Below are positions 3,380 to 22,168 of a stretch of 29,350 nt of DNA, piece after piece. The notes below the pieces were generated by a model. That model did no database searches, was not told where the DNA came from, and saw only the letters and a list, made by a program, of their open reading frames with translations. Made by a program: the position numbers and the translations under genes. This DNA comes from a virus. Position 1 is the stretch's first letter. Each line of letters opens with the position of its first letter. The stretch lies in IMG/VR virus record IMGVR_UViG_3300032173_000471, positions 1-29,350 of that record; one strand, given 5' to 3'.

Positions 3380-4153
3380 ATGGCCATTAAGACTCAGCAA
3401 CCTTTGCTCACCCCGTACCAACAAACTTTGGGAGTAGTGTGGGGAAACTTGCTTCTGTTCAGTATCTCTACGATTTGGTTCCATCAGTGGTTCCTTATTC
3501 CGCTAGCATTTGTCGGACTGCACGTTTTTTGCGTGATGTCAGAGTCTTCTCTCCACCGTTATTATTCTCATCGCACCTACGAAACTGGGGCAACGGGGAG
3601 GGTGATACTAAGGTTGTTTGCCCTATTGGCTGGGCAGGGGGCAATTCTCAGTTGGACCACGGTTCACAGGACCCACCATGCAAATGAGGATGGCCCTGAA
3701 GACCCCCATTCCCCAGCCTATGTCCCGTGGTGGAGAATTCTGACTGGTTTGTACACAGGGAAGTATAAGAAGACTTTGGTAACAGACTTGCTTAGGGGAC
3801 CAGACCGGGACTACCTGCTGTGGGAGAACAACAACTATTGGTTGCTTTGGGTTGTTGTTTGGGTGGGTACTTTTCTGTTAAGTCCGTACTTATTCTACTT
3901 CATTGTAAGTGGATCAGCAATGTGGTACTTGGCCAATACTTCAGTCAACATATTCCTACATACAAACTTTATTGGAACCAAAGACTATGCGGAAACCGTG
4001 GCTACCAACAGCGTCACTATGCATGTACTGACTGGTATAGGCTACCACAATAATCATCACAAGTACCCCTCCAGCTACGACATTGGCCTAGGGAAGCGCT
4101 TTGATCTCGTTGGCTGGACAATTCGTAATTTCCTTAGACTTGAAGCCGGTTGA
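3380..4153 (+). CDS. Fatty acid desaturase (delta-9, DesC-like)
   Basis: This 257-residue membrane di-iron desaturase shows all three histidine boxes of the acyl-CoA/acyl-lipid desaturase family: HRYYSH (59-64), HRTHH (96-100) and HNNHH (223-227). Hydrophobic spans lie around residues 18-50, 72-92 and 150-190, fitting a four-helix membrane enzyme with catalytic loops in the cytoplasm. It would introduce a cis double bond into acyl chains of membrane lipids, using reduced ferredoxin in a cyanobacterial host. At 257 residues it is slightly short for the family but complete. Desaturases are known auxiliary metabolic genes of cyanophages. Delta-9 specificity is inferred from overall resemblance. 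The gene follows the previous one by 3 bp and its stop overlaps a promoter -35 box. Confidence 0.92.
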   Translation: MAIKTQQPLLTPYQQTLGVVWGNLLLFSISTIWFHQWFLIPLAFVGLHVFCVMSESSLHRYYSHRTYETGATGRVILRLFALLAGQGAILSWTTVHRTHHANEDGPEDPHSPAYVPWWRILTGLYTGKYKKTLVTDLLRGPDRDYLLWENNNYWLLWVVVWVGTFLLSPYLFYFIVSGSAMWYLANTSVNIFLHTNFIGTKDYAETVATNSVTMHVLTGIGYHNNHHKYPSSYDIGLGKRFDLVGWTIRNFLRLEAG

Positions 4154-4397: not shown

Positions 4398-4413
4398 TTT
4401 GCTGGACAAAGAG

Positions 4414-5049
4414 ATGGGAAACTACACCAAATACCCTCGCACCTCCCATCTCCCTTGGTCCGAGGCTCTGACCTCAGACGATAAGCTTTGCCCCAACGTT
4501 TCCCACTTTGTCGGCAAGCAGGTTGTTGTCACTGAGAAGATGGATGGGGAAAATACAACCATGTATTGTGACCATATTCATGCCCGAAGCATTGACTCTA
4601 AAGGTGGGGAAGATAGGGCGTGGGTTAAGCAACTTTGGTCCGGTATTCGTATGGACATCCCGGAAGGGTGGCGTATCTGTGGTGAGAACCTTTGGGCCTG
4701 CCACAGTGTTCATTATACCGAGTTAAAATCGTACTTTTACGGGTTTAGCGTTTGGGACGATTACAACAATGCTCTCTCTTGGGGTGACACCCTGGAATAC
4801 TTCGAAATGCTAGGTATTTGCCCTGTCCCTGTGATATACTTTGGTATCTGGAACGAGATTGCTATTCGCAATCTTGCAGACAGCATGGACCTTAACGGGG
4901 CGGAAGGATATGTGGTTCGCCTTGCCGACTCATTTCACTACGACAACTTCAGCACTTCGGTTGCAAAATTCGTCCGAAAAAACCACGTTCAAACCGACAA
5001 GCACTGGCGCACCCAGGCATTTGTCCCCAATTTACTTTGCCACCGATAA
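4414..5049 (+). CDS. RNA ligase (Rnl2-like nucleotidyltransferase)
   Basis: With ATG 4414 the protein has 211 residues. Motif I is EKMDGENTTMY, placing the adenylated lysine at K42 of KMDG. The segment RICGENLWACHSVHY, then the YFYGFSVWDD strand, motif IV EGYVVRL and motif V KFVRKNHVQTD follow in the order seen in phage RNA ligase family proteins (PF09414). It would seal 3'-OH/5'-phosphate RNA ends with ATP, as in repair of tRNAs cut by host anticodon nucleases. An in-frame TTG at 4399 could add five residues; the family usually begins close to the YPRTxHLPWS segment, so ATG is preferred. The last residues (QAFVPN) recur in a remnant at 5523-5560. Confidence 0.85.
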   Translation: MGNYTKYPRTSHLPWSEALTSDDKLCPNVSHFVGKQVVVTEKMDGENTTMYCDHIHARSIDSKGGEDRAWVKQLWSGIRMDIPEGWRICGENLWACHSVHYTELKSYFYGFSVWDDYNNALSWGDTLEYFEMLGICPVPVIYFGIWNEIAIRNLADSMDLNGAEGYVVRLADSFHYDNFSTSVAKFVRKNHVQTDKHWRTQAFVPNLLCHR

Positions 5050-8378: not shown

Positions 8379-10412
8379 ATGGAAACATCAACAAACCTGG
8401 TAACGCAGCTTCAGGAAGACTACCTGAGCTATTCAATGGCCGTACTCGTCGGGAGAAGCATTCCTGATATCTACGATGGGCTGAAGCCTGCCCAAAGACG
8501 CACCCTTCAAACGATGCTGGAGGAAGGTCTCCTACCTGGGAAACCCTACGTCAAATGTGCTAGAACCACCGGCCTAACCAGTGCCTATTACCACCCCCAC
8601 GGGTCGGCTTATGGCGCACTTATCAACATGGCTACAGAGTGGAATAATAACATTCCGTGGATTGACTGCCACGGGAATGTTGGCAGCTCAGTGGACAATC
8701 CTGCGGCTGAACGGTACGTAGAGAATAGGCTACGCACTTCCGCCATTGACCTTCTCCTCCAGGATAAGGAAGTATGGGACACCCGCCCCAACTACGATGG
8801 GAGTCGAAAGGAAGCTATTCGATTCAATAGTTCGGTCCCCGCTGTCCTCCTTAATGGGGACTCTGGTATCGCAGTTGGGTTTGCAACTAAGCTAGCTCCG
8901 CACAACCTTAGGTCAATAATCGACGCTGTAAAGTTGATCTGCAAGGATACCGCTACGGAGAAAGCCCACCTGGAAAATCTTCGCAAAGCCAGGGAAGGGT
9001 TGCTCCCAGACTTCCCCACAGGTACACAAATCATCAAAGATGAGCAGCTTGATAACTACACCAAGACAGGTAGCGGTAGTATACGCTGTATGGCGTGTGT
9101 CAAAACGGGTGAACAGAAACGGGACGGTCGCGCTAAAAATCGCCCAACTCTTTCCTTCACTAATCTCCCTCCCGGCACCAATCCCGAAAAGCTTGGGGAA
9201 CAGATTAAGAACGAATTAGAGAAGGGACGAATTGAAGGGGTAGCTGAGGTCAATGACCTGTCGGACATGTCTGGCGATTGCATTGAGGTTGTGGCTAAAC
9301 CTGGAGTTGACCCTGAGAATCTGAAAAAACTTCTCTACGCCTATACTGACCTAGATACAAAGTTCTCTGCCAAGACTTTGGTAATCGATGGCATTAAGCC
9401 TGTAGAACTTTCTCCCATCCAAATCTGCCAACGATGGGTAAATTGGAGGCTCGATAGGCTCCAAGTCAAGTTTGAACATGAGCTTGAACTGAAAGAAGCT
9501 CGCCTGCACATTGTGCTAGGTTTGCTGAAAGCCATCGACAGAATGGACCTTGTCATCAAAAAGATTAGGGCCACTAAGGATAAGGCAGAGGCTAAAGCCT
9601 CTTTGATGGCAACCCCATTTAAGTTTTCCGATAGGCAGGCAGAAGCAATCCTTGAGATGCGTCTGAGGCAGCTTACTGGGTTGGACCAGACTGACCTTAC
9701 CGCAGAAGGCAACTCCCTACAAGCAAGAATCGATGAGTTGGAAGAACTTGTCAGTGATGAAACCAGCGGTACTACCGCCCGCAAGCTCTACATGCTTGAG
9801 GAACTAACTGAGCTGGGCAAGCGCCACGGAGAAGCCCGTAGAAGCCCCCTGGTGGAGCCCCCGGCTAGTTCCGTATCCGTTTCCCCTGGAGCTAGAACCA
9901 AGGCGCCACTAACCGCCTCCAAGCCCCGGTTTATGATGGTGGATACCAAGAAGGGAACCGTCGAACAAGTCAAGGGTCCGAGAGGTGCGCTTGTCGTAGA
10001 CTCTAAGGACAAAGTTATCCTTATGACTGAGGACGGTATGCTCAAAAAGGTGCCAGCCACATTCAAGGGCACAATTTCTAACGCTTACTCCAAAGTCGCC
10101 ATTGCTAAACCTGAAGCTGAGGTCTCCAAGCGAGTTTACCTGGCAGTATTTGAGCTAGAGGGCCAGCTCAAGGCCATGACACTGTCCGGGGAAGACCTTT
10201 GCAAAACAACAAGTACGGGTAAACAGTGGTTGCCCGAAGGAGCTGTACTCACTTACTTCGGAGAAGGGACCTTCTCTGTCGCTTGGGTATCAACCCGCAA
10301 GAAACCCTCTAAACTAGATCTCACTCTGAAGCGGGGTAAACCCGGCGGGAAAGGGATTAAAGTTGCAAATTTGTCAGAAGTCAAGTCTGAAAATGGGGGT
10401 AAAACCACTTGA
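8379..10412 (+). CDS. DNA topoisomerase II subunit A (GyrA/ParC-like)
   Basis: The 677-residue protein matches the A subunit of bacterial type IIA topoisomerases. It has the N-terminal YLSYSMAVLVGRSIPDIYDG strand, DGLKPAQRR (33-41), YHPHG (71-75), and the active-site region PAAERYVENRL with R112 and catalytic Y113. A coiled-coil and C-gate segment includes EAILEMRLRQLTGL (~421-434). A shortened C-terminal part (~515-670) has KGTVEQVKGPRG-type blade motifs, with KRGKPGGKGIK near the end reminiscent of a GyrA box. Bacterial GyrA is near 800-875 residues, so the wrapping domain is reduced. It cleaves and rejoins DNA but needs an ATPase B subunit, which is not in the window. Host GyrB or a phage gene elsewhere could supply it. 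Confidence 0.93.
   Translation: METSTNLVTQLQEDYLSYSMAVLVGRSIPDIYDGLKPAQRRTLQTMLEEGLLPGKPYVKCARTTGLTSAYYHPHGSAYGALINMATEWNNNIPWIDCHGNVGSSVDNPAAERYVENRLRTSAIDLLLQDKEVWDTRPNYDGSRKEAIRFNSSVPAVLLNGDSGIAVGFATKLAPHNLRSIIDAVKLICKDTATEKAHLENLRKAREGLLPDFPTGTQIIKDEQLDNYTKTGSGSIRCMACVKTGEQKRDGRAKNRPTLSFTNLPPGTNPEKLGEQIKNELEKGRIEGVAEVNDLSDMSGDCIEVVAKPGVDPENLKKLLYAYTDLDTKFSAKTLVIDGIKPVELSPIQICQRWVNWRLDRLQVKFEHELELKEARLHIVLGLLKAIDRMDLVIKKIRATKDKAEAKASLMATPFKFSDRQAEAILEMRLRQLTGLDQTDLTAEGNSLQARIDELEELVSDETSGTTARKLYMLEELTELGKRHGEARRSPLVEPPASSVSVSPGARTKAPLTASKPRFMMVDTKKGTVEQVKGPRGALVVDSKDKVILMTEDGMLKKVPATFKGTISNAYSKVAIAKPEAEVSKRVYLAVFELEGQLKAMTLSGEDLCKTTSTGKQWLPEGAVLTYFGEGTFSVAWVSTRKKPSKLDLTLKRGKPGGKGIKVANLSEVKSENGGKTT
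10397..10404 (+). promoter_or_regulatory. GGGTAARA motif, site 1
   Basis: GGGTAAAA lies in the last codons of the topoisomerase gene, 36 bp before the next ATG (10440). It is one of seven copies clustered at gene 3' ends in the late part of the window. Confidence 0.3.
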
Positions 10413-10439
10413 GAGATTTACAAACGATCTCCCAAAGCT

Positions 10440-11009
10440 ATGATAAACCGGTTGGACTCGATTATGGCAATTGTTTACCCTGTTTCTAGATTACTGGCAA
10501 ACCCAAAGATCTTCTATGCCATTGCTAACTATCTGGGCGGCCCGGATGCTGAAACCATTAGGTCTGCCTTTTACGATTTACTTGAGTTCGAGATGGAGGA
10601 GGAAGAAGACCTCGATGATTGTGAATTTGACGCTGAAGAGGTGTGCTTCTCAGTAGAAGAAGAAGGAGCAATCTGCAACATCCAATTCGATACCGGCCTT
10701 ATTTCCCGCTTGGAGGCAGTCCAAGGGGAAATTAAAGCTCACATAAACAATGACAGAGAGTTGGCAACAGCCTCTGCCATTTACCAAAAGTTGGTAACAG
10801 CTATTGAGAAGGTGAATCCAGACTTCAAAGGCGATATCGCCCTGTGTTCACCCCCTACACCTGGTAACTCCTATCTACGCTCAACGGATGGGAATAACTT
10901 TGTAGGTAACTTTCATCTGTTGTCCAACCCAGATACACAATTTGCATTTAACGTATTAGTGTTAGATGCAGACACAGAACAACTACAAGCAACCATCCAT
11001 CCAATTTAA
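10440..11009 (+). CDS. Hypothetical acidic protein (189 aa)
   Basis: This protein is not recognised. An N-terminal helical segment (MAIVYPVSRLLANPKIFYAI) is followed by a very acidic stretch FEMEEEEDLDDCEFDAEEV (residues ~50-70), then alternating helix and strand, ending TEQLQATIHPI. The length and lack of repeats suggest a globular protein with a charged loop. It starts 27 bp after the topoisomerase stop. An internal ATG at 10464 is an alternative start. The 3' end runs directly into the next gene. Confidence 0.6.
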   Translation: MINRLDSIMAIVYPVSRLLANPKIFYAIANYLGGPDAETIRSAFYDLLEFEMEEEEDLDDCEFDAEEVCFSVEEEGAICNIQFDTGLISRLEAVQGEIKAHINNDRELATASAIYQKLVTAIEKVNPDFKGDIALCSPPTPGNSYLRSTDGNNFVGNFHLLSNPDTQFAFNVLVLDADTEQLQATIHPI

Positions 11010-11010
11010 C

Positions 11011-11760
11011 GTGAAAGACTCCCTACTTCAAAACTCTGCTGCTATTAAGACTTCTATTCTCTCGCTAAAGAAAAAAGCGATTATGATGCAAAGTCAGATT
11101 CACGCAATCGACACTGAGATAAGTAAAGTTGGAGACAAGGTAGATAACCTGCTACAGGAATCTGACAGCACCATTGAATGGTTGAGGCACAGGGTAAGCG
11201 AACTGGAGAGTTATTTCAATGATACACCTCCACCAAGCAGCACCGATCCTTTGGAGCTTAAGAAAGCTGTCACCCTTCAAATATTTGAGTTCATCGTTGA
11301 CCAAATATGCGATGGCTCAGATGATTACGAAGTCATGTGCCAAGCTTTCCTGTTCCCCGTAGTCTATAGCCACGTTGTTATGGGGGAGAAAAAGTACCTT
11401 CTGGACTATCTTCCCGACTGCGTTGGCTATGTCATTGATTCGGGTAAAGAGTTCTTACAATCCGTTCGTGAGGTCTGTGATGCACAGCTTACTCAGCAAA
11501 AACCTTGGGATAGCGTGATAGACTTGTCAGTGAGTTGGTGGAAGGAGCAGGCACTACCCTTGATGTACAGGGAGGAAGAGGAGTTCTGGAATAAAGATGA
11601 GGTATTTACCCTCAGCACCATGGAAGACTGGGAAGCCAACTATTCTATGAGACCCATCAACTATCCTACCGTATACGATGCTATAAACACTTTGAACACA
11701 CACCGAGAAGAAGCGTATGAAGCTTCAGGAATCAGAGAGTTCGGGTCCCTCCAGTTTTGA
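11011..11760 (+). CDS. Hypothetical protein with N-terminal coiled coil
   Basis: From GTG 11011, one base after the preceding stop, this is a 249-residue protein. An upstream in-frame ATG at 10966 would add 15 residues but overlap the previous gene by 44 bp, which is out of keeping with this genome. Residues ~10-65 (LKKKAIMMQSQIHAIDTEIS and VSELESYFND) form a likely coiled coil. The rest is a helical acidic domain with Trp-rich segments (DLSVSWWKEQALPLMYREEE). There is no enzymatic motif. It may be a structural or scaffolding-type protein; function unknown. Confidence 0.6.
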   Translation: MKDSLLQNSAAIKTSILSLKKKAIMMQSQIHAIDTEISKVGDKVDNLLQESDSTIEWLRHRVSELESYFNDTPPPSSTDPLELKKAVTLQIFEFIVDQICDGSDDYEVMCQAFLFPVVYSHVVMGEKKYLLDYLPDCVGYVIDSGKEFLQSVREVCDAQLTQQKPWDSVIDLSVSWWKEQALPLMYREEEEFWNKDEVFTLSTMEDWEANYSMRPINYPTVYDAINTLNTHREEAYEASGIREFGSLQF

Positions 11761-11764
11761 AAAC

Positions 11765-11772
11765 GGGTAAGA
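11765..11772 (+). promoter_or_regulatory. GGGTAARA motif, site 2
   Basis: GGGTAAGA starts 4 bp after the previous stop and 30 bp before ATG 11795. It is followed by TACTGTA; together this closely resembles the site at 22827 (GGGTAARA, one base, ACTGTA). Confidence 0.4.
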
Positions 11773-11794
11773 TACTGTACTACGACTTAAGAGA

Positions 11795-12127
11795 ATGATT
11801 CCAAGAGTGGTTCAAATGGCCAAAGCCATTTCGGTCATCATTGGCCCCGGTGGGGTGGAAGAGTACGGAAACATCATCGCCAAACCCTATAAGGGGTGGA
11901 GCAACAACTACAACTCTTATTTCCTGGGCTCCCCAGGCGAGGCAGTTTCTGATACTCTGGGTAGGCCCACCATGTTCAACTACAGCGTCCATAGCTGGAA
12001 CCCCGATGGTGATCCCAGGTGGGCTCAACCCCCTGCAAGGAAGTTTGATATTGGGTTTGGCAGTGCGCTATACCCTGTGCAAGATAGCCTGACTCCCCCC
12101 CCCTTCAACGAAGTAACAGCTCCCTGA
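11795..12127 (+). CDS. Hypothetical protein (110 aa), Gly/Pro-rich C-terminus
   Basis: The protein starts MIPRVVQMAKAISVIIGPGG; ATG 11816 (MAKAISV) is an equally possible start. It is rich in Gly, Pro, Asn and Trp (KGWSNNYNSYFLGSPG, SWNPDGDPRW), more like an extended or beta-rich surface protein than an enzyme. A run of nine C inside the gene encodes Pro-Pro-Pro (near residue 103), a slippage-prone spot. It is transcribed alone between two larger genes, behind a GGGTAAGA motif. Function unknown. Confidence 0.55.
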   Translation: MIPRVVQMAKAISVIIGPGGVEEYGNIIAKPYKGWSNNYNSYFLGSPGEAVSDTLGRPTMFNYSVHSWNPDGDPRWAQPPARKFDIGFGSALYPVQDSLTPPPFNEVTAP

Positions 12128-12162: not shown

Positions 12163-14976
12163 ATGGAAACCACAGATCTAGGCTACCCGGTTATTTCCAA
12201 TGACCTATATAAAAAAGTGTTCGGAAATGGAAAAAGACCGGAGATGGACAGTGCCCAGAAAAATAGGGCCATAGACCTGCTAGGAGAGTTTGATATATCC
12301 GTACCTGTAGCTTACCCTGAGAATCTATTCAACGGCTCCTTGCCTTTGCCTGACTTGCAGGCAGACAACATTAAGGAGCACTTTGAGACCATTGCCAAGA
12401 AGCAAGTAGGCCACTATAAGGAGCTTGGGGATTACTTTTCTAAGTGCGAGCTACCCCCTATTCCCCCCATCGATGAACTGGTATTTGAGCCGGGTTGGGT
12501 TCGCTACGAGTGGAATGAGGGGTGGAATATCGAGCACGTTGAGTTTCCACTTGAGAAAATCTTTACGTTTGACACGGAAACCTTTGTAGAAGGTGGAGCT
12601 TTACCGATTATTGGCACTGCTCTAAGTGACAAAGCTGCCTATATTTGGATTGCCAAAGAACTTATCGATCCGTCTATACCTAAGGAGGAATGGGACCAGC
12701 GTGATCTAATCCCTATCGGGACAGGCAAATTTGTCATCGGTCATAACATTTCTTATGACCGTGTGAGGGCGCAAGAAGGTTACTCTCTGGAGAATACTCG
12801 GCCAGAGAACTTTTACTTCGATACTCTATCTGCTCACATTGGGGTAGCGGGGTTGGCAAGTGGGCAAAGGTGGCTATATTCCCTGGCGACGAAGGATCGC
12901 AAATCGTTGACGAACCAGGAGAAAAGACTGATTAATACCGCACCCATGTGGCTCAGTAAAGGGAGCACAAACTCAATGGTCCAAGTGTATAATCACCATG
13001 TGTGTGGCGCTGGCTCTTTCTTTGGCGAGAGTGGGTTTGCCCCACTGGAACCAGCAGACAAGGAGGTTAGAGATTTGTTCGTGAAGGCCACCGAACTGAT
13101 TCACATTACCCCTTACCTGAGGGAGGCAGTGGATTATGCTATCAAAGATGCTCTCTACACAGCCAGAATCTTTCAGGCCCTGTGGCCAAAGTATATTACT
13201 TGCACCCCCTCCATGGTGGCTCTCTGTGGTCACTATTACTTGAACGGTTCAGTTGTTCCTTTGGAATCAAACTGGGACGATTGGATAAATGACACGGAAG
13301 CGGTGTACCACAGTTACAATGACGAGATGACCGCTATTTGTAAAGAACTGCTGTGGAAATTCTATGAAGAGTGGAAGTCATTTGAGTCTGACTCCGAAAG
13401 AAAAGCATGGGTAAGGGAAGACCCTTGGCTCAAACAGTTGGATTGGGAAGTTAAAACTGAAAAAGGTAAGTATGCTGGAGTCCCCCAGTGGGTTCGACCA
13501 TTCATCAAAGACCCCGAGGCACCGGTAGGAGTCAAAAGCCGTTTGGCCCATCTACTGTTGAAGCTGACTTGGGAAGGCCAACCATTGACCTGGGAAGAAG
13601 GTTACGGTTGGTGTTATTTTGAAGAGGGCAATAGTGACCTCAACGAGGAAGAATGGGACCTTATAAAGACCGAGGCAGATAAAAAACTGTTTGGGAAGAA
13701 GGTTCCACACCCTAAGGGCACTGGTGAAAATGTAGGCTCTTTGTTTTCAAAGGACTTTGTAGACGATATGGCGGTGGGGCGCTTGAATAGCGTTCTGCCT
13801 GAGGCAAAGAGGGCTCTGGAGATTGCTGACGCCACTTCCTATTGGACGTCGGTGCGTAAACGGGTTAGGGGTCGTATTTTTTTTTCGGCTAAGAATCCTC
13901 ACGGTGAAAAAGCCATGGTAACCTTGCCTGAGATTCTTTGTCACGGTACTGTGACCCGAAGGACAGTAGAGCCGCTGTTTGCCACAATGTGCAAGACTAA
14001 AAGCTGGCGCATTGGCACTGAACTAAAAACCAGAGTTAAAGCCCCGGACGGATGGAAGATTGTGGGAGCTGACTTCGATGGGCAAGAGATGCAAATTGCC
14101 TCAGTCTATTCGGACAAGTGGGAGGGCGGGTTTATTGGATGTTCTCCCTTTGGGCACAATGTTCTGAGCGGTTCCAAAGAGGCCGGTACAGACCCCCACA
14201 GTGCCCTCGCAAAGATTGGGGGAGTAGACAGGGAGCTTGCCAAGGTCGTGGGCTTCTCAATTCTGTATGGGGCCGCTCTACGGGCAGTAATGACCTACAT
14301 TAGGCGTAAGTACCCGGATAAGGCGGAGAACGAGGTTCACACCTTCGCTAAACGAATGATTGATGGTAAGAAGGGAGTTTTGATAGACGGCATCTACAAG
14401 GGTGGGACCGACTCCGGTTGTTTTAACTACATGGAGAAAATCGCCCTGAAGGACGAGGTTTCCACACTGCCTTGCCTTGGTACAAAGATCTCCACTGCAA
14501 TGCGTAAAGGTTTTGTCGGCAATGAGTTCAAAACTGGCAGGGTTAACTGGACGATTCAGTCTTCGGGGGCTGAAATTCTCTCCGTCATTCTAACGGCCGT
14601 CCACTGGTTGGCCGATGAATATAAGATTCCCTGCCGATTTGTAATCAGCATTCACGACGAGGTGTGGTTCATCACGCCTGAAAAGTATGCTGAGCAGTTT
14701 GCAGTGGTGTTCCAAATAGCCCACTTGTATACTTGGGCTTTGTTCCAATACTCTGTCGGTATCCCTGATTTACCGCTGAGTAGGGCTTTCTTCTCTTCTG
14801 TTGCTATCGACCACAGGATTAGGAAAACTCCTGAAGAAAAGACGACGTCACCTTCAAACCCCGGCGGCATAAATGAACCAGATGGCGTAGAACATTCTAT
14901 GTCCCAACTATCTGACATTGGTGCCGTTAGCAAACTAAAGCTACGCTACGATTCCATCAAAAAAGGACTTATTTAA
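12163..14976 (+). CDS. Family A DNA polymerase, mitochondrial polymerase gamma-like
   Basis: The 937-residue protein is a replicative family A polymerase with active 3'-5' exonuclease motifs: Exo I FDTETF (D137, E139), Exo II GHNISYD (N195, D199) and Exo III YAIKD (Y325, D329). Polymerase motif A is VGADFDGQE (D637), motif B RELAKVVGFSILYG (R690, K694, Y702) and motif C ISIHDEVWF (H831, D832, E833). The motif details and many segments between them (GWVRY before Exo I, EDPWL, ENVGSLFSKDF, TVTRRTVEP, RVNWTIQSS, SPSNPGG near the end) follow animal and fungal POLG rather than Pol I or T7. From memory the Exo III to motif A linker of human POLG is about 490 residues; here it is about 308, so accessory-subunit contacts are probably missing. 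There is no targeting peptide. Confidence 0.95.
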   Translation: METTDLGYPVISNDLYKKVFGNGKRPEMDSAQKNRAIDLLGEFDISVPVAYPENLFNGSLPLPDLQADNIKEHFETIAKKQVGHYKELGDYFSKCELPPIPPIDELVFEPGWVRYEWNEGWNIEHVEFPLEKIFTFDTETFVEGGALPIIGTALSDKAAYIWIAKELIDPSIPKEEWDQRDLIPIGTGKFVIGHNISYDRVRAQEGYSLENTRPENFYFDTLSAHIGVAGLASGQRWLYSLATKDRKSLTNQEKRLINTAPMWLSKGSTNSMVQVYNHHVCGAGSFFGESGFAPLEPADKEVRDLFVKATELIHITPYLREAVDYAIKDALYTARIFQALWPKYITCTPSMVALCGHYYLNGSVVPLESNWDDWINDTEAVYHSYNDEMTAICKELLWKFYEEWKSFESDSERKAWVREDPWLKQLDWEVKTEKGKYAGVPQWVRPFIKDPEAPVGVKSRLAHLLLKLTWEGQPLTWEEGYGWCYFEEGNSDLNEEEWDLIKTEADKKLFGKKVPHPKGTGENVGSLFSKDFVDDMAVGRLNSVLPEAKRALEIADATSYWTSVRKRVRGRIFFSAKNPHGEKAMVTLPEILCHGTVTRRTVEPLFATMCKTKSWRIGTELKTRVKAPDGWKIVGADFDGQEMQIASVYSDKWEGGFIGCSPFGHNVLSGSKEAGTDPHSALAKIGGVDRELAKVVGFSILYGAALRAVMTYIRRKYPDKAENEVHTFAKRMIDGKKGVLIDGIYKGGTDSGCFNYMEKIALKDEVSTLPCLGTKISTAMRKGFVGNEFKTGRVNWTIQSSGAEILSVILTAVHWLADEYKIPCRFVISIHDEVWFITPEKYAEQFAVVFQIAHLYTWALFQYSVGIPDLPLSRAFFSSVAIDHRIRKTPEEKTTSPSNPGGINEPDGVEHSMSQLSDIGAVSKLKLRYDSIKKGLI

Positions 14977-17983: not shown

Positions 17984-20900
17984 ATGGCAACTTTTTCTTT
18001 TGGCACTGGTGTAACTCCTGGTGCTCCCGGTACTTATATCAACGAACGTGTTGGTAATGTCGCTTCGGCTGGCATCGCTTCTTTCAACACTACCTACCTG
18101 TTGGTGGAGACTGATGGGGATGTTCCTGTAACAAGGTTCCCCTTCAACTCCCCAGTTCCCGTAACTTCATTAGCTGACTACAAAGTCCTAGTGGGCGGGG
18201 TTCCTACGGCCAAAATGGCCCGCCTTAGCTACAACTGCGTAAATTCCTTCTTCCTGAACGCTCAAATCGGAGATCTAAGGGTTGTTAGAGTTGGTACGCC
18301 TAACCAAATCGTTGAGATTGAGCTTCTTCCATCAGGAACTAAGGTCAGCTCATCTGGTTTGCCATCTTCCTTGCAAGCTGGTGACATTGTCTATGCCCAA
18401 ATTCTTCTCAACGGACTGAAGTTGGTTGCTGGTGACGGTTCAACCGGTTATACCGAAGATGGAGAATGGTTAGGAGTCCCTGTAACTATTCCTGTTGATT
18501 ACATCAGTGGCGATGAAGTAAACAACCGTAAGATTTCTTCTGCTATCGCTGCCGCTATTGCGTCTGCTATTGAGTCAAACCCCAGTGTCAGAAGTGCTAT
18601 CTACGTTAGGGATTTTGGTATGGTCAACGACCTTATCCCAACTTCCAACTCAGAGAACAGCTACGTCACTATCGCAGCCACGACATACGACGGAAATGTT
18701 TCTGTCGTGACCGAACAGCTCCCTATTGGAGCTGCAAGTGTCTTCATGCAGAATGTTTACGATGTCACAAATATCGTCGGTCTGCAAAACAACCTGGAGC
18801 GTGTTCCTCAGGATTACATCCAGTGTATCAGCACAGCTTTTGATGGCCAAGCTGACCAAGGCTATCTACTAGCCCCCACAGCGTTTGCTCAGTTTGACGC
18901 TGATGGCCGTTCTGCCGTGGGTGCTGCTGCCGCTAACCATTGCCAAGATAATAACTTCAAGTGGATGGCCTTGGCTGACGCTGGTTCTTTCTTGGTTACT
19001 GACATCAACAAGTACAAGGAATACACACCTCATCAACCTGCCGCTAACCTGGTAACTGGCAATCAGTACCTTGTGGATAACGCTATCTACAAATGGACTG
19101 GAAACAATGTGGCTTATGATAGATTGCGCTATCAAACTTTGGTCCCAGGGTACGACCCTAAAGTGGCCGTTGAAGAGTCCGTTGAAACCGTAGCTATTGG
19201 TGAAAAGGTCGGTCTTCTAGATAGTGCTACTTTCGTAGTTAACTCTTCCACGAGTGCCGAAATCGGTGCATTTGTGCTGGATCCTACCACTGTGTGGCCA
19301 GTCAACTACCAGATTCAGCAAGTCACCTTGAGTGACCTCGGTGCTGACTTCTTGCCCTTGCTCCCAATAGGAGAAACTTCGGCAAATGTATATATCGTTG
19401 CTCCACCATTTGACTCTGCTGTCTACGGTCCTTACCCCTCCGGCGGAAATGTTGACCCTCAGGCTGTCTTTATCGCTGAGACGTCTTCTGATGCAGTATC
19501 AATCCTTACTGAAGTTATCGCCCTGGGTGGGACAAGCTTTGTTACCTCACCTCCTGCTGGTTGCTTCTATGTGGATGTGCCAACTGGAAGCACCGCTAGC
19601 GCAACTTATGAAGTAGCTGCTTGGGACCTGCCAGTTGAAATCAACGGTCAAACTTCCAACCTAGTTCAGAACATCTCCGGCGCCCCTGCTTCGGTAAACA
19701 CTCTGCACTTGCCTGGCTCGCTGCAGAAATCAACCGAAGATTATCGCCTATCTTTTATTAGCAGAACCTTCTTTAATCCGGCTTCCTTAGGGTTGATTTT
19801 AACCTTGGACTCAAGCGGTTTGTCTCCAGGATCTGACTACGTAGAAGGTGTCTACTCTGCGGTACCTTTGATTTATGATGGCGCCCCTGGCGATGGCTCT
19901 GGCGCTACTGCAACTATCACTGTAGATAGTTTAGGGGAAGTTTCCTCGGTGGTTCTGGAACTCTCTGGTACCGGTTACTCCACAGGGGATACTCTGACGG
20001 CAGACGATGCTGATCTCGGTAACTCCGGTATTGGTTCTGGTTTTACAATCGATGTTCTGACAGTAACTGACAGCCTGTATTCCAATACAGCAACGTCTTA
20101 CTCTGGCGCAGCTACATTCTTCTGTAAGAATCACAGCCTGGTAAATGGTCAAAAGGTATTCTTCACTCAGCCCATCCTTAACAACACAACAGCGTTGTTC
20201 AAAGGTACCAGCTCAAGCGCTACCAATGCCTACTTTGTGAAAGTTATCGACAACAGTAACTTCATCCTGGCTACATCTAGTTCCAACTACTTGGCTGGGT
20301 CATTCGTTCCATATCCTGGTTTACCCGCGATTTCAACGAATCCCACCATTCTGTACACTGCCCTAAGGGGTGGTTTGGCAACTGCTCTTAATCTGTCCGA
20401 GCTGACAACCTTCCCCTTCATAAGAGGCAGGAAGTACGGTTTTGCTACCGGCACCGTTATTAACCAGGCTTGCTCTAATAGCCTTGTTAGCGACAATGGC
20501 AACAACCCCGATGTTTCAATCCTACTTAATACTAGTAGCATTGTTACCGGTAACGAAAGAGTTTTCCCATATGGTGAAACCCCTTCAGCAGGTTGGTTGC
20601 CTGAGTTGGGTCTAGTATCACCCGGTGGCAATACCAACGTAATTGCCAACTACATTTGCACCCCTACAGTCAATCAAAGCTTTGCTTCTGAAGCCTACTT
20701 TGTTCCTACCATTGACGCTATCTATGGTGGTGAGTTTGACGCAGGCGCCACTAGCTCGACTGGCCCTATTCTTACCTTCGGAGCCATTACCGGTGGTACA
20801 CTTTACGGTAACGGGAGTTACACAAACGTTCCCCTCACAGGCGGTTCAGGAACCGGAGCTACTGCGGATATCACAGTGGTTGGCGGAATTGTCACGGTTG

Positions 20901-22168
20901 TCAGTCTCAATGAGCCTGGTTTAGGGTATTCAGCCACTGATGACCTATCGGCATCTAGTGCTAACCTTGGTGGCAGTGGTTCGGGCTTTGAAGTAGTAGT
21001 GGGTACCATTACTACAAGTAGCGGTGAACTGACCGACGTATCAGCTTATGCTGAAGCGTGTGGACTGGCCAACGGAAACGGAAGCCTTGAGATTCAGAAC
21101 GCTATCAGCCCTCTGTCAGGTGTCTACTTTAATGTAACCTCCGACGGAACTGCCCCCGACGGGACAACCGACGTTGTTGACGGAGACAGAATTGCTGTTG
21201 AATTCAGCGGTTCTTCTTATAACTGGGTTGTTGTTCCTGCTGCAGCTCTGGGTGGTGACTTGTCTTCTGTAGCACACGTTTGCTACGGCTCTCAAGTAGA
21301 ACTTGCCTTGACTCAAGAGCAAACTCTCCCTCAGACACTGTGGAACTTCGATGCTATCACATCGACTGAGATCATCGATAATGCTCTCCGTGGAGTTGGC
21401 TTCGCTGGTGAACCCCAAGCAGTGTTTATTGAGGCTGGAGTTGACAATGTTAACCGTCTGTATGCAGATAGCCAAAAGTACTTCAATGCCTTTGGTTTCA
21501 TTGCCTTCTACGGTTCTTACATCGAGAACTCTGCTGGACAGTACATCCCCCCATCCTCCTATGTGGCCGGTGTGGCAGCTCGCCGCTACCGTGCAGAAGG
21601 ATTCCAGTTCCCACCCGCAGGTACCAAGTATCAACTTGCTGATGCTGTGGGCGTTCAAATCCCTGTCAACTCGGCTCAGCAAAACTTGCTGAACCCTGAC
21701 GGTTGCAACGTGGTTCGCTCCCTTCCTGGATACCCTGCTACGGCAGTCTTCATCTGGGGCGGTAGAACTAGAATCAACCCTGCTGTTGCAGACCAGCGTA
21801 AGTTCCAGTTTGTAAACACTCGTGTTATCCAGAACGTGGTGTATGGCTCACTAAGGAGCGCTTTTGACAACCAAATCTTCACAGTTGTGGACGGTTTCGG
21901 TGTCGTGTTTAACCAGATTGTATCAATCGGTAACAGCGTTCTAAACCAGCTTTATACCGCTGGCGCACTCTACGGGGCTCGCCCTTCCGATGCGTTCCAG
22001 GTTATATGCGACGAGCGTATCAACACTTCTGAGAACTTGGAGAATGGTATCGTGAATGTCAAGGTGTTTGACGTTCCTGTGCCGACCTTGGAGAGAATCC
22101 AGGTTGACCTCATCAGAGTGTCAATTGGTCAAATGAACAACGAGCTAATTTCTCAAGGACTGGAGTGA
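17984..22168 (+). CDS. Contractile tail sheath protein, very large
   Basis: The ends match phage tail sheath proteins. The N-terminus has PGTYINERVGNVASAGIASF and a first domain to about residue 430. The C-terminal domain (~1115-1394) has NLLNPDGCNVVRSLPGY, VWGGRTR-type strands (FIWGGRTRINP) and the terminal inter-subunit arm (LENGIVNVKVFDVPVPTLER). At 1394 residues it is about twice T4 gp18 (659). The extra length is an insertion of some 680 residues, rich in Gly/Ser/Thr, containing two copies of a Gly-rich repeat domain (around 625-695 and 940-1010, consensus GSGTGATAxITV...GxGYSxxDxL). These would decorate the outer tail surface. The frame is intact and its codon use is uniform across insert and flanks. 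Confidence 0.92.
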   Translation: MATFSFGTGVTPGAPGTYINERVGNVASAGIASFNTTYLLVETDGDVPVTRFPFNSPVPVTSLADYKVLVGGVPTAKMARLSYNCVNSFFLNAQIGDLRVVRVGTPNQIVEIELLPSGTKVSSSGLPSSLQAGDIVYAQILLNGLKLVAGDGSTGYTEDGEWLGVPVTIPVDYISGDEVNNRKISSAIAAAIASAIESNPSVRSAIYVRDFGMVNDLIPTSNSENSYVTIAATTYDGNVSVVTEQLPIGAASVFMQNVYDVTNIVGLQNNLERVPQDYIQCISTAFDGQADQGYLLAPTAFAQFDADGRSAVGAAAANHCQDNNFKWMALADAGSFLVTDINKYKEYTPHQPAANLVTGNQYLVDNAIYKWTGNNVAYDRLRYQTLVPGYDPKVAVEESVETVAIGEKVGLLDSATFVVNSSTSAEIGAFVLDPTTVWPVNYQIQQVTLSDLGADFLPLLPIGETSANVYIVAPPFDSAVYGPYPSGGNVDPQAVFIAETSSDAVSILTEVIALGGTSFVTSPPAGCFYVDVPTGSTASATYEVAAWDLPVEINGQTSNLVQNISGAPASVNTLHLPGSLQKSTEDYRLSFISRTFFNPASLGLILTLDSSGLSPGSDYVEGVYSAVPLIYDGAPGDGSGATATITVDSLGEVSSVVLELSGTGYSTGDTLTADDADLGNSGIGSGFTIDVLTVTDSLYSNTATSYSGAATFFCKNHSLVNGQKVFFTQPILNNTTALFKGTSSSATNAYFVKVIDNSNFILATSSSNYLAGSFVPYPGLPAISTNPTILYTALRGGLATALNLSELTTFPFIRGRKYGFATGTVINQACSNSLVSDNGNNPDVSILLNTSSIVTGNERVFPYGETPSAGWLPELGLVSPGGNTNVIANYICTPTVNQSFASEAYFVPTIDAIYGGEFDAGATSSTGPILTFGAITGGTLYGNGSYTNVPLTGGSGTGATADITVVGGIVTVVSLNEPGLGYSATDDLSASSANLGGSGSGFEVVVGTITTSSGELTDVSAYAEACGLANGNGSLEIQNAISPLSGVYFNVTSDGTAPDGTTDVVDGDRIAVEFSGSSYNWVVVPAAALGGDLSSVAHVCYGSQVELALTQEQTLPQTLWNFDAITSTEIIDNALRGVGFAGEPQAVFIEAGVDNVNRLYADSQKYFNAFGFIAFYGSYIENSAGQYIPPSSYVAGVAARRYRAEGFQFPPAGTKYQLADAVGVQIPVNSAQQNLLNPDGCNVVRSLPGYPATAVFIWGGRTRINPAVADQRKFQFVNTRVIQNVVYGSLRSAFDNQIFTVVDGFGVVFNQIVSIGNSVLNQLYTAGALYGARPSDAFQVICDERINTSENLENGIVNVKVFDVPVPTLERIQVDLIRVSIGQMNNELISQGLE

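Follow-up and report, generated by a model that had tools for sequence, protein, structure and literature searches.

A predicted POLG-type DNA polymerase in an uncultured, probably cyanobacterial, tailed phage and its bearing on the origin of mitochondrial DNA polymerase gamma

Introduction

Genes for DNA polymerase gamma (POLG) have been on record in cyanophages since 2011 (Chan et al., 10.1093/molbev/msr041, cited in PMC7156551, PMC4928673, and PMC3914683). In the account given by PMC7156551, the earlier carriers were A-HIS1 and A-HIS2 (Chan et al. 2011), S-TIM5 (Sabehi et al. 2012), and S-CBWM1 (Xu et al. 2018). The same paper, which describes Microcystis phage Mic1, states that no bacterial POLG is known and that, besides animals and fungi, carriers have been reported among cyanophages alone, and it proposed, from an unrooted neighbour-joining tree, a common ancestor of such phage genes and mitochondrial POLG. 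The idea of a phage origin of POLG also appears in PMC4928673 and PMC3914683, and mitochondrial POLG, Twinkle, and POLRMT are still stated to be one T-odd phage package (e.g., PMC12230644). The relatives gathered here make the origin of the animal and fungal mitochondrial DNA polymerase testable.

The closest described system is the polymerase gamma of S-CBWM1 (NC_048106 gp120), an isolated phage whose host is Synechococcus CBW1002. The polymerases of S-TIM5, Mic1, A-HIS1, and A-HIS2 likewise have the POLG architecture along their whole length, and T7 gp5 shares the family A core, its exonuclease and polymerase also lying on one chain. The DNA analysed here, called the window, is a stretch of 29,350 bp (IMG/VR record IMGVR_UViG_3300032173_000471). 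A sequence-only reading had pointed to its ORF at 12163-14976 as a phage polymerase resembling mitochondrial POLG throughout, and had implied that such a homologue was new. The implied novelty does not hold, given the 2011 publication and the annotated S-CBWM1 copy at 53% identity; phage POLG is already known, and the window represents a further full-length member. In our estimate, the ORF encodes, with a probability of about 0.95 judged from sequence comparison and modelling, a replicative, proofreading POLG-type polymerase; the tailed phage to which it belongs is uncultured, falls in the S-CBWM1 group, and probably infects cyanobacteria.

Gene organisation and sequence matches

The ORF comprises 937 codons (937 aa) with no internal stops. 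The following features were assigned in and next to it:

8379..12127, +, conserved upstream neighbours of the POLG gene (profile matches, gene-order comparison)
8379-10412, +, type II topoisomerase A-type subunit, upstream of the POLG gene
10440-11009, 10966-11760, and 11795-12127, +, three ORFs of unknown function, upstream of the POLG gene
12163..14976, +, polG-like gene, POLG-type family A DNA polymerase, 937 aa (sequence, tree, and structure comparison)
12340..13194, +, 3'-5' proofreading exonuclease domain, residues 60-344 (PF18136 DNApol_Exo, E 1.8e-60)
12568..12582, +, Exo I, FDTET, with D137 and E139 (alignment)
12739..12762, +, Exo II, GHNISYDR, with D199 (alignment)
13135..13149, +, Exo III, YAIKD, with Y325 and D329 (alignment)
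13195..13932, +, POLG-type linker, residues 345-590, shorter than the human one and lacking the accessory-interaction insert (sequence comparison)
14062..14088, +, polymerase motif A, VGADFDGQE, with catalytic D637 (alignment)
14230..14271, +, polymerase motif B (O-helix), R690...K694...F698...Y702, F698 standing at the position of human POLG Y951 (alignment)
14647..14664, +, polymerase motif C, SIHDEV, with catalytic D832 (alignment)
14767..14868, +, POLG-specific C-terminal elements DLPLSRAFFSSVAIDHRIRK and SPSNPGG (alignment)

The profile and database searches agree with the sequence-only reading. The mitochondrial-polymerase exonuclease domain (PF18136) was matched at 205 bits against a cut-off of 26.7, PF00476 (DNA_pol_A) was matched above its cut-off, and the PHROG family phrog_22619 (DNA polymerase) gave an E value of 1.1e-218. 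Among all PDB chains, the top 14 sequences were mitochondrial polymerase gamma (E 1e-110 to 1e-113), human POLG being the best solved relative (E 1.8e-113), and the nearest non-POLG chain was a Pol I (E 1.3e-5). The match to POLG is far above chance level, and at the level of homology the identity of the enzyme is certain.

Twelve of 50,697 phage records matched the window polymerase. Whole-length matches were found to S-CBWM1 (53% identity), four S-TIM phages (36%), Mic1 (32%), and A-HIS1/2 (29-32%), and several of these 29-53% matches carry the annotation DNA polymerase gamma. In IMG/VR, at least 132 relatives were found, with identities to the window polymerase of up to 67%. The window adds one full-length POLG to a branch abundant in metagenomes. 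The S-CBWM1 enzyme (53-56% full-length identity) differs from that of the window in an insert between motifs A and B, its A-C spacing being 231 residues versus 195.

Side observations concern the Mic1 gene, which, unlike that of the window, is split by an intron: the gap (9797-10069) matched the RF00028 group I intron model (45.5 bits, just below the gathering score of 50; E 3.4e-10). The POLG gene of the metagenomic contig L165 is split like that of Mic1.

Motifs, active sites, and linker

Column-by-column alignment with human POLG, yeast MIP1, T7, and E. coli Pol I recovered every motif string cited in the sequence-only reading, each lining up with human POLG and/or MIP1. The window and human versions were, respectively, GWVRY and GWTRY in the N-terminal part, FDTET and FDVEV (Exo I), IGHNISYDR and VGHNVSFDR (Exo II), LTWEG and LTWDG, ENVGSLFSKDF and CNVGSPFAKDF, TVTRRTVEP and TITRRAVEP, VGADFDGQE and VGADVDSQE (motif A), GTDPHS and GTDLHS, RVNWTIQSS and RVNWVVQSS, and SPSNPGG and TPSNPTG. 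EDPWL and motif C (ISIHDEV) are identical in the two, and the C-terminal element DLPLSRAFFSSV of the window aligns with DLPQSVAFFSAV in the human row. The POLG-specific motifs present outside the catalytic core are thus GWxRY, DPWL, LTWxG, NVGSxxxKD, TxTRRxVEP, GTDxHS, DLPxSxAFFSxV, and PSNPxG; at most of the non-catalytic POLG motifs, T7 and E. coli Pol I are gapped or carry unrelated residues.

The exonuclease residues D137, E139, D199, and D329 and the polymerase residues D637 and D832 are all conserved, and D637, R690/K694/Y702, and D832 (motifs A, B, and C) line up with the human and yeast enzymes. In POLG biochemistry, polymerase and proofreading exonuclease functions reside in one chain. 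Since both active sites are conserved, a single chain of the window polymerase should polymerise DNA and proofread with its own exonuclease, by analogy with those enzymes.

The linker is indeed shorter than in animal POLG, as the sequence-only reading had proposed. The DPWL-to-LTW spacing is 48 residues in the window versus about 123 in human POLG, and the spacing from LTW to the PHPKG/PHKDG motif is 46 versus about 147. Yeast MIP1 is intermediate in length between the window and human enzymes; its Exo III-to-motif A spacing is 346 residues versus 308 in the window. The accessory-subunit interaction segment, a feature of the animal POLG holoenzyme, was absent from the window linker by spacing and alignment, again in accordance with the earlier reading; the missing residues cover the human segment that contacts the accessory subunit. 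Because this segment is missing, the window polymerase probably needs no accessory subunit and would act without the animal one, as MIP1 does.

The position of human Tyr951 is occupied by Phe698 in motif B of the window. In the alignment, Phe is found there in the window, S-CBWM1, and A-HIS, and Tyr in S-TIM5, Mic1, human, and yeast, a distribution already pointed out for the four phage types (PMC7156551). Compared with the human and yeast enzymes, the window polymerase differs in the lacking insert, the shorter linker, Phe698 for Tyr951, and its phage host. Whether this motif B site holds Phe or Tyr sets dideoxynucleotide discrimination in the E. coli Pol I and T7 enzymes. Given the Phe, the window polymerase is expected to discriminate more strongly, rejecting dideoxynucleotides to a greater degree than either mitochondrial POLG or the T7 enzyme.

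Predicted structure

An AlphaFold model was built from an alignment of the window polymerase with 31 IMG/VR relatives (mean pLDDT 84.7, pTM 0.85). The top 36 Foldseek PDB matches were mitochondrial POLG throughout (human, mouse, and yeast), with TM scores mostly of 0.7-0.8; human POLG was matched at E 3.6e-59, and the first non-POLG enzyme was the phage G20c Pol I at E 2.6e-12. The structure comparison with human POLG suggested by the sequence-only reading returned a POLG fold: VIA-align gave Z scores of 35-36 to POLG over about 840 residues (36.5 for an alignment of 834 residues with rmsd 3.1 and 33% identity), and 16.6 or less to other family A enzymes. As the latter align only from about residue 98, the likeness of the predicted fold to POLG spans the whole chain, including the N-terminal part and linker. 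Human POLG and MIP1 accordingly share with the modelled window enzyme the whole-length fold (about 840 structurally aligned residues, about 33% of them identical), the exonuclease and polymerase residues, and the linker and C-terminal motifs found only in POLG.

Phylogenetic placement and origin of mitochondrial POLG

The main tree (34 rows, 525 columns, LG+C20 PMSF) was rooted with ten other family A polymerases. The POLG clade, including the window polymerase, was supported at 100/100 and the T7 gp5 clade was separate, also at 100/100, so that the window enzyme groups with POLG and away from T7 and Pol I, as the sequence-only reading had predicted. Three main POLG branches were obtained: the S-TIM5 type, the S-CBWM1 type, and one joining A-HIS, Mic1, and the eukaryotes (94/88). 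The window polymerase falls within the S-CBWM1 branch (100/100); S-TIM5, Mic1, and A-HIS1/2, at 30-37% identity to it, form separate deep branches.

The opisthokonts were represented by three sequences, namely human POLG in pieces and a partial mouse sequence, both as given by the PDB search, and yeast, and the Mic1 row was a join of two annotated ORFs. The three opisthokont sequences formed one clade (100/97), whose sister, inside the phage diversity, was Mic1 plus L165 (100/99). A POLG-only tree of 896 columns, in which the eukaryotic rows differ in letter make-up, agreed with the main tree, including this sistership. Support for the Mic1-eukaryote pairing was 99 when yeast was dropped together with two long outgroups, 99 when the outgroups were restricted to T7-like enzymes, 92 when the polymerase domain was analysed by itself, and 99 for the N-terminal/exonuclease part by itself. 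Near the root, the branching order of the phages was unstable and shifted with domain and outgroup. A scan led by yeast MIP1 retrieved only S-TIM5- and S-CBWM1-type branches at about 30% identity, and a scan of viral contigs led by A-HIS retrieved only four loci, including L165, a Mic1-like contig of 97 kb.

The nesting of eukaryotic POLG within phage diversity upholds the view that a phage homologue of this kind bears on the phage origin of POLG. The window polymerase was rejected as the closest phage relative of mitochondria, the nearest branch being that of Mic1. On these sequence data, opisthokont POLG probably descends from a phage gene of this POLG family, the Mic1 branch, and not that of the window, being its nearest.

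The opposite transfer, in which a phage lineage captured POLG from a eukaryote, appears unlikely. Direction cannot be read from sequence similarity alone, and the POLGs found here were in phages and not, as far as limited scans go, in bacterial genomes; two scans of bacterial genome contigs with a few short peptide patterns found none, which is weak evidence of absence. Against capture, the eukaryotes form one branch within several deep phage branches when rooted with family A enzymes, forcing all phage POLGs into one clade was 15.2 log units worse and was rejected (p-AU 0.0095), and the animal inserts are missing from the phage POLGs.

That the gene encodes a standard phage polymerase of the T7 or Pol I type, resembling POLG by convergence at catalytic motifs, is highly improbable. 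The family A core, motifs A, B, and C, and the DNA_pol_A match are common to all these enzymes, but the likeness to POLG extends over the N-terminal region, linker, and C-terminus; aligned identity is 32-35% to POLG and 15-20% to T7 and Pol I (about 16% for T7 gp5, which also lacks most POLG-only motifs). With structural Z scores of 36 versus 17 or less and tree support of 100/100, a T7-like or Pol I-like identity was rejected.

Genomic neighbourhood and host

The order of the topoisomerase gene and the first two ORFs of unknown function upstream of the POLG gene is kept in S-CBWM1 and in most IMG/VR contigs compared. Downstream, small ORFs, a sheath-like protein, a portal, and a head protease are common to the IMG/VR relatives. 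Eukaryotic contamination or a chimeric contig, for which no supporting evidence was found, was rejected as exceedingly improbable, much as the sequence-only reading had supposed, because numerous independent IMG/VR contigs, and in part the isolate S-CBWM1, keep the flanking gene order, and the intron-free POLG gene is closest to phage sequences.

Photosystem reaction-centre genes, detected in 6 of the 15 POLG-phage records described below, are in line with cyanobacterial hosts, and the host of the window phage would, by analogy with these relatives, also be cyanobacterial.

Several other window ORFs were annotated. The 1394-aa protein at 17984-22168 has a good tail sheath match in its C-terminal part only and aligns only in part in most relatives. 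The ORF at 3380-4153 belongs to the fatty acid desaturase family (PF00487, E 9.6e-12) and is a possible auxiliary metabolic gene, and that at 4399-5049 belongs to an RNA ligase family (PF09414, E 1.3e-28). A pentapeptide-repeat protein is encoded at 1265-1882 (PF00805, E 3.1e-70) in the same phage as the type II topoisomerase subunit; gyrase is a target of some proteins with such repeats.

Replication genes of POLG phages

The companion Twinkle/gp4-like helicase and single-subunit RNA polymerase raised in the sequence-only reading were sought in 15 POLG-phage records, namely S-CBWM1, S-TIM5, Mic1, A-HIS1, and eleven IMG/VR contigs of 86-279 kb, one of which is S-CBWM1 again; the window itself is a 29 kb fragment. 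Neither PF00940 (single-subunit RNA polymerase) nor PF03796 (DnaB_C, the family of T7 gp4 and Twinkle) was matched in any of the 15, whereas the positive controls, T7 and Rhizobium phage Pasto, gave strong matches to both. T7 thus differs in having its own RNA polymerase and gp4 helicase, both absent from the POLG phages searched.

Most POLG phages encode a DUF5906 'DNA primase' (phrog_25243). Relatives of the A-HIS1 DUF5906 protein were found in 13 of 17 records, including all four named complete genomes; it stands alongside POLG in S-TIM5, Mic1, and A-HIS1 (A-HIS2 was represented by its POLG gene only). The P-loop DPGLGKST occurs in both the S-CBWM1 and A-HIS1 proteins, and a search of the primase against solved structures returned no significant sequence match. 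From the primase seen in its relatives, outside the 29 kb fragment, the window polymerase would be expected to extend primers made by a phage DUF5906 primase, and the DUF5906 protein may also unwind DNA.

As POLG phages lack the other two T7-like mitochondrial enzymes, they speak against a single T-odd donor of the whole set, and a one-package origin finds no support in the phages that actually carry POLG. These phages offer a possible source of POLG, not of the whole T7-like mitochondrial set. We tentatively suggest, at somewhat less than even odds, that opisthokont POLG came from a cyanophage-like lineage near Mic1 whose replisome had a DUF5906 primase but lacked both Twinkle and a single-subunit RNA polymerase. 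If so, the T7-like replication and transcription set of mitochondria is a patchwork of separate phage sources and not one T-odd package. The comparison across phage POLGs, with the Mic1-eukaryote nesting and the missing T7-like companions, is the part worth following.

In two large POLG-phage contigs, L051 (contig positions 19603-22220) and L065 (contig positions 246961-249608), about 1 kb separates two parts of the DUF5906 primase gene. The second part begins in both at the position of A-HIS1 residue 340, and the split points to an intron or another kind of insert.
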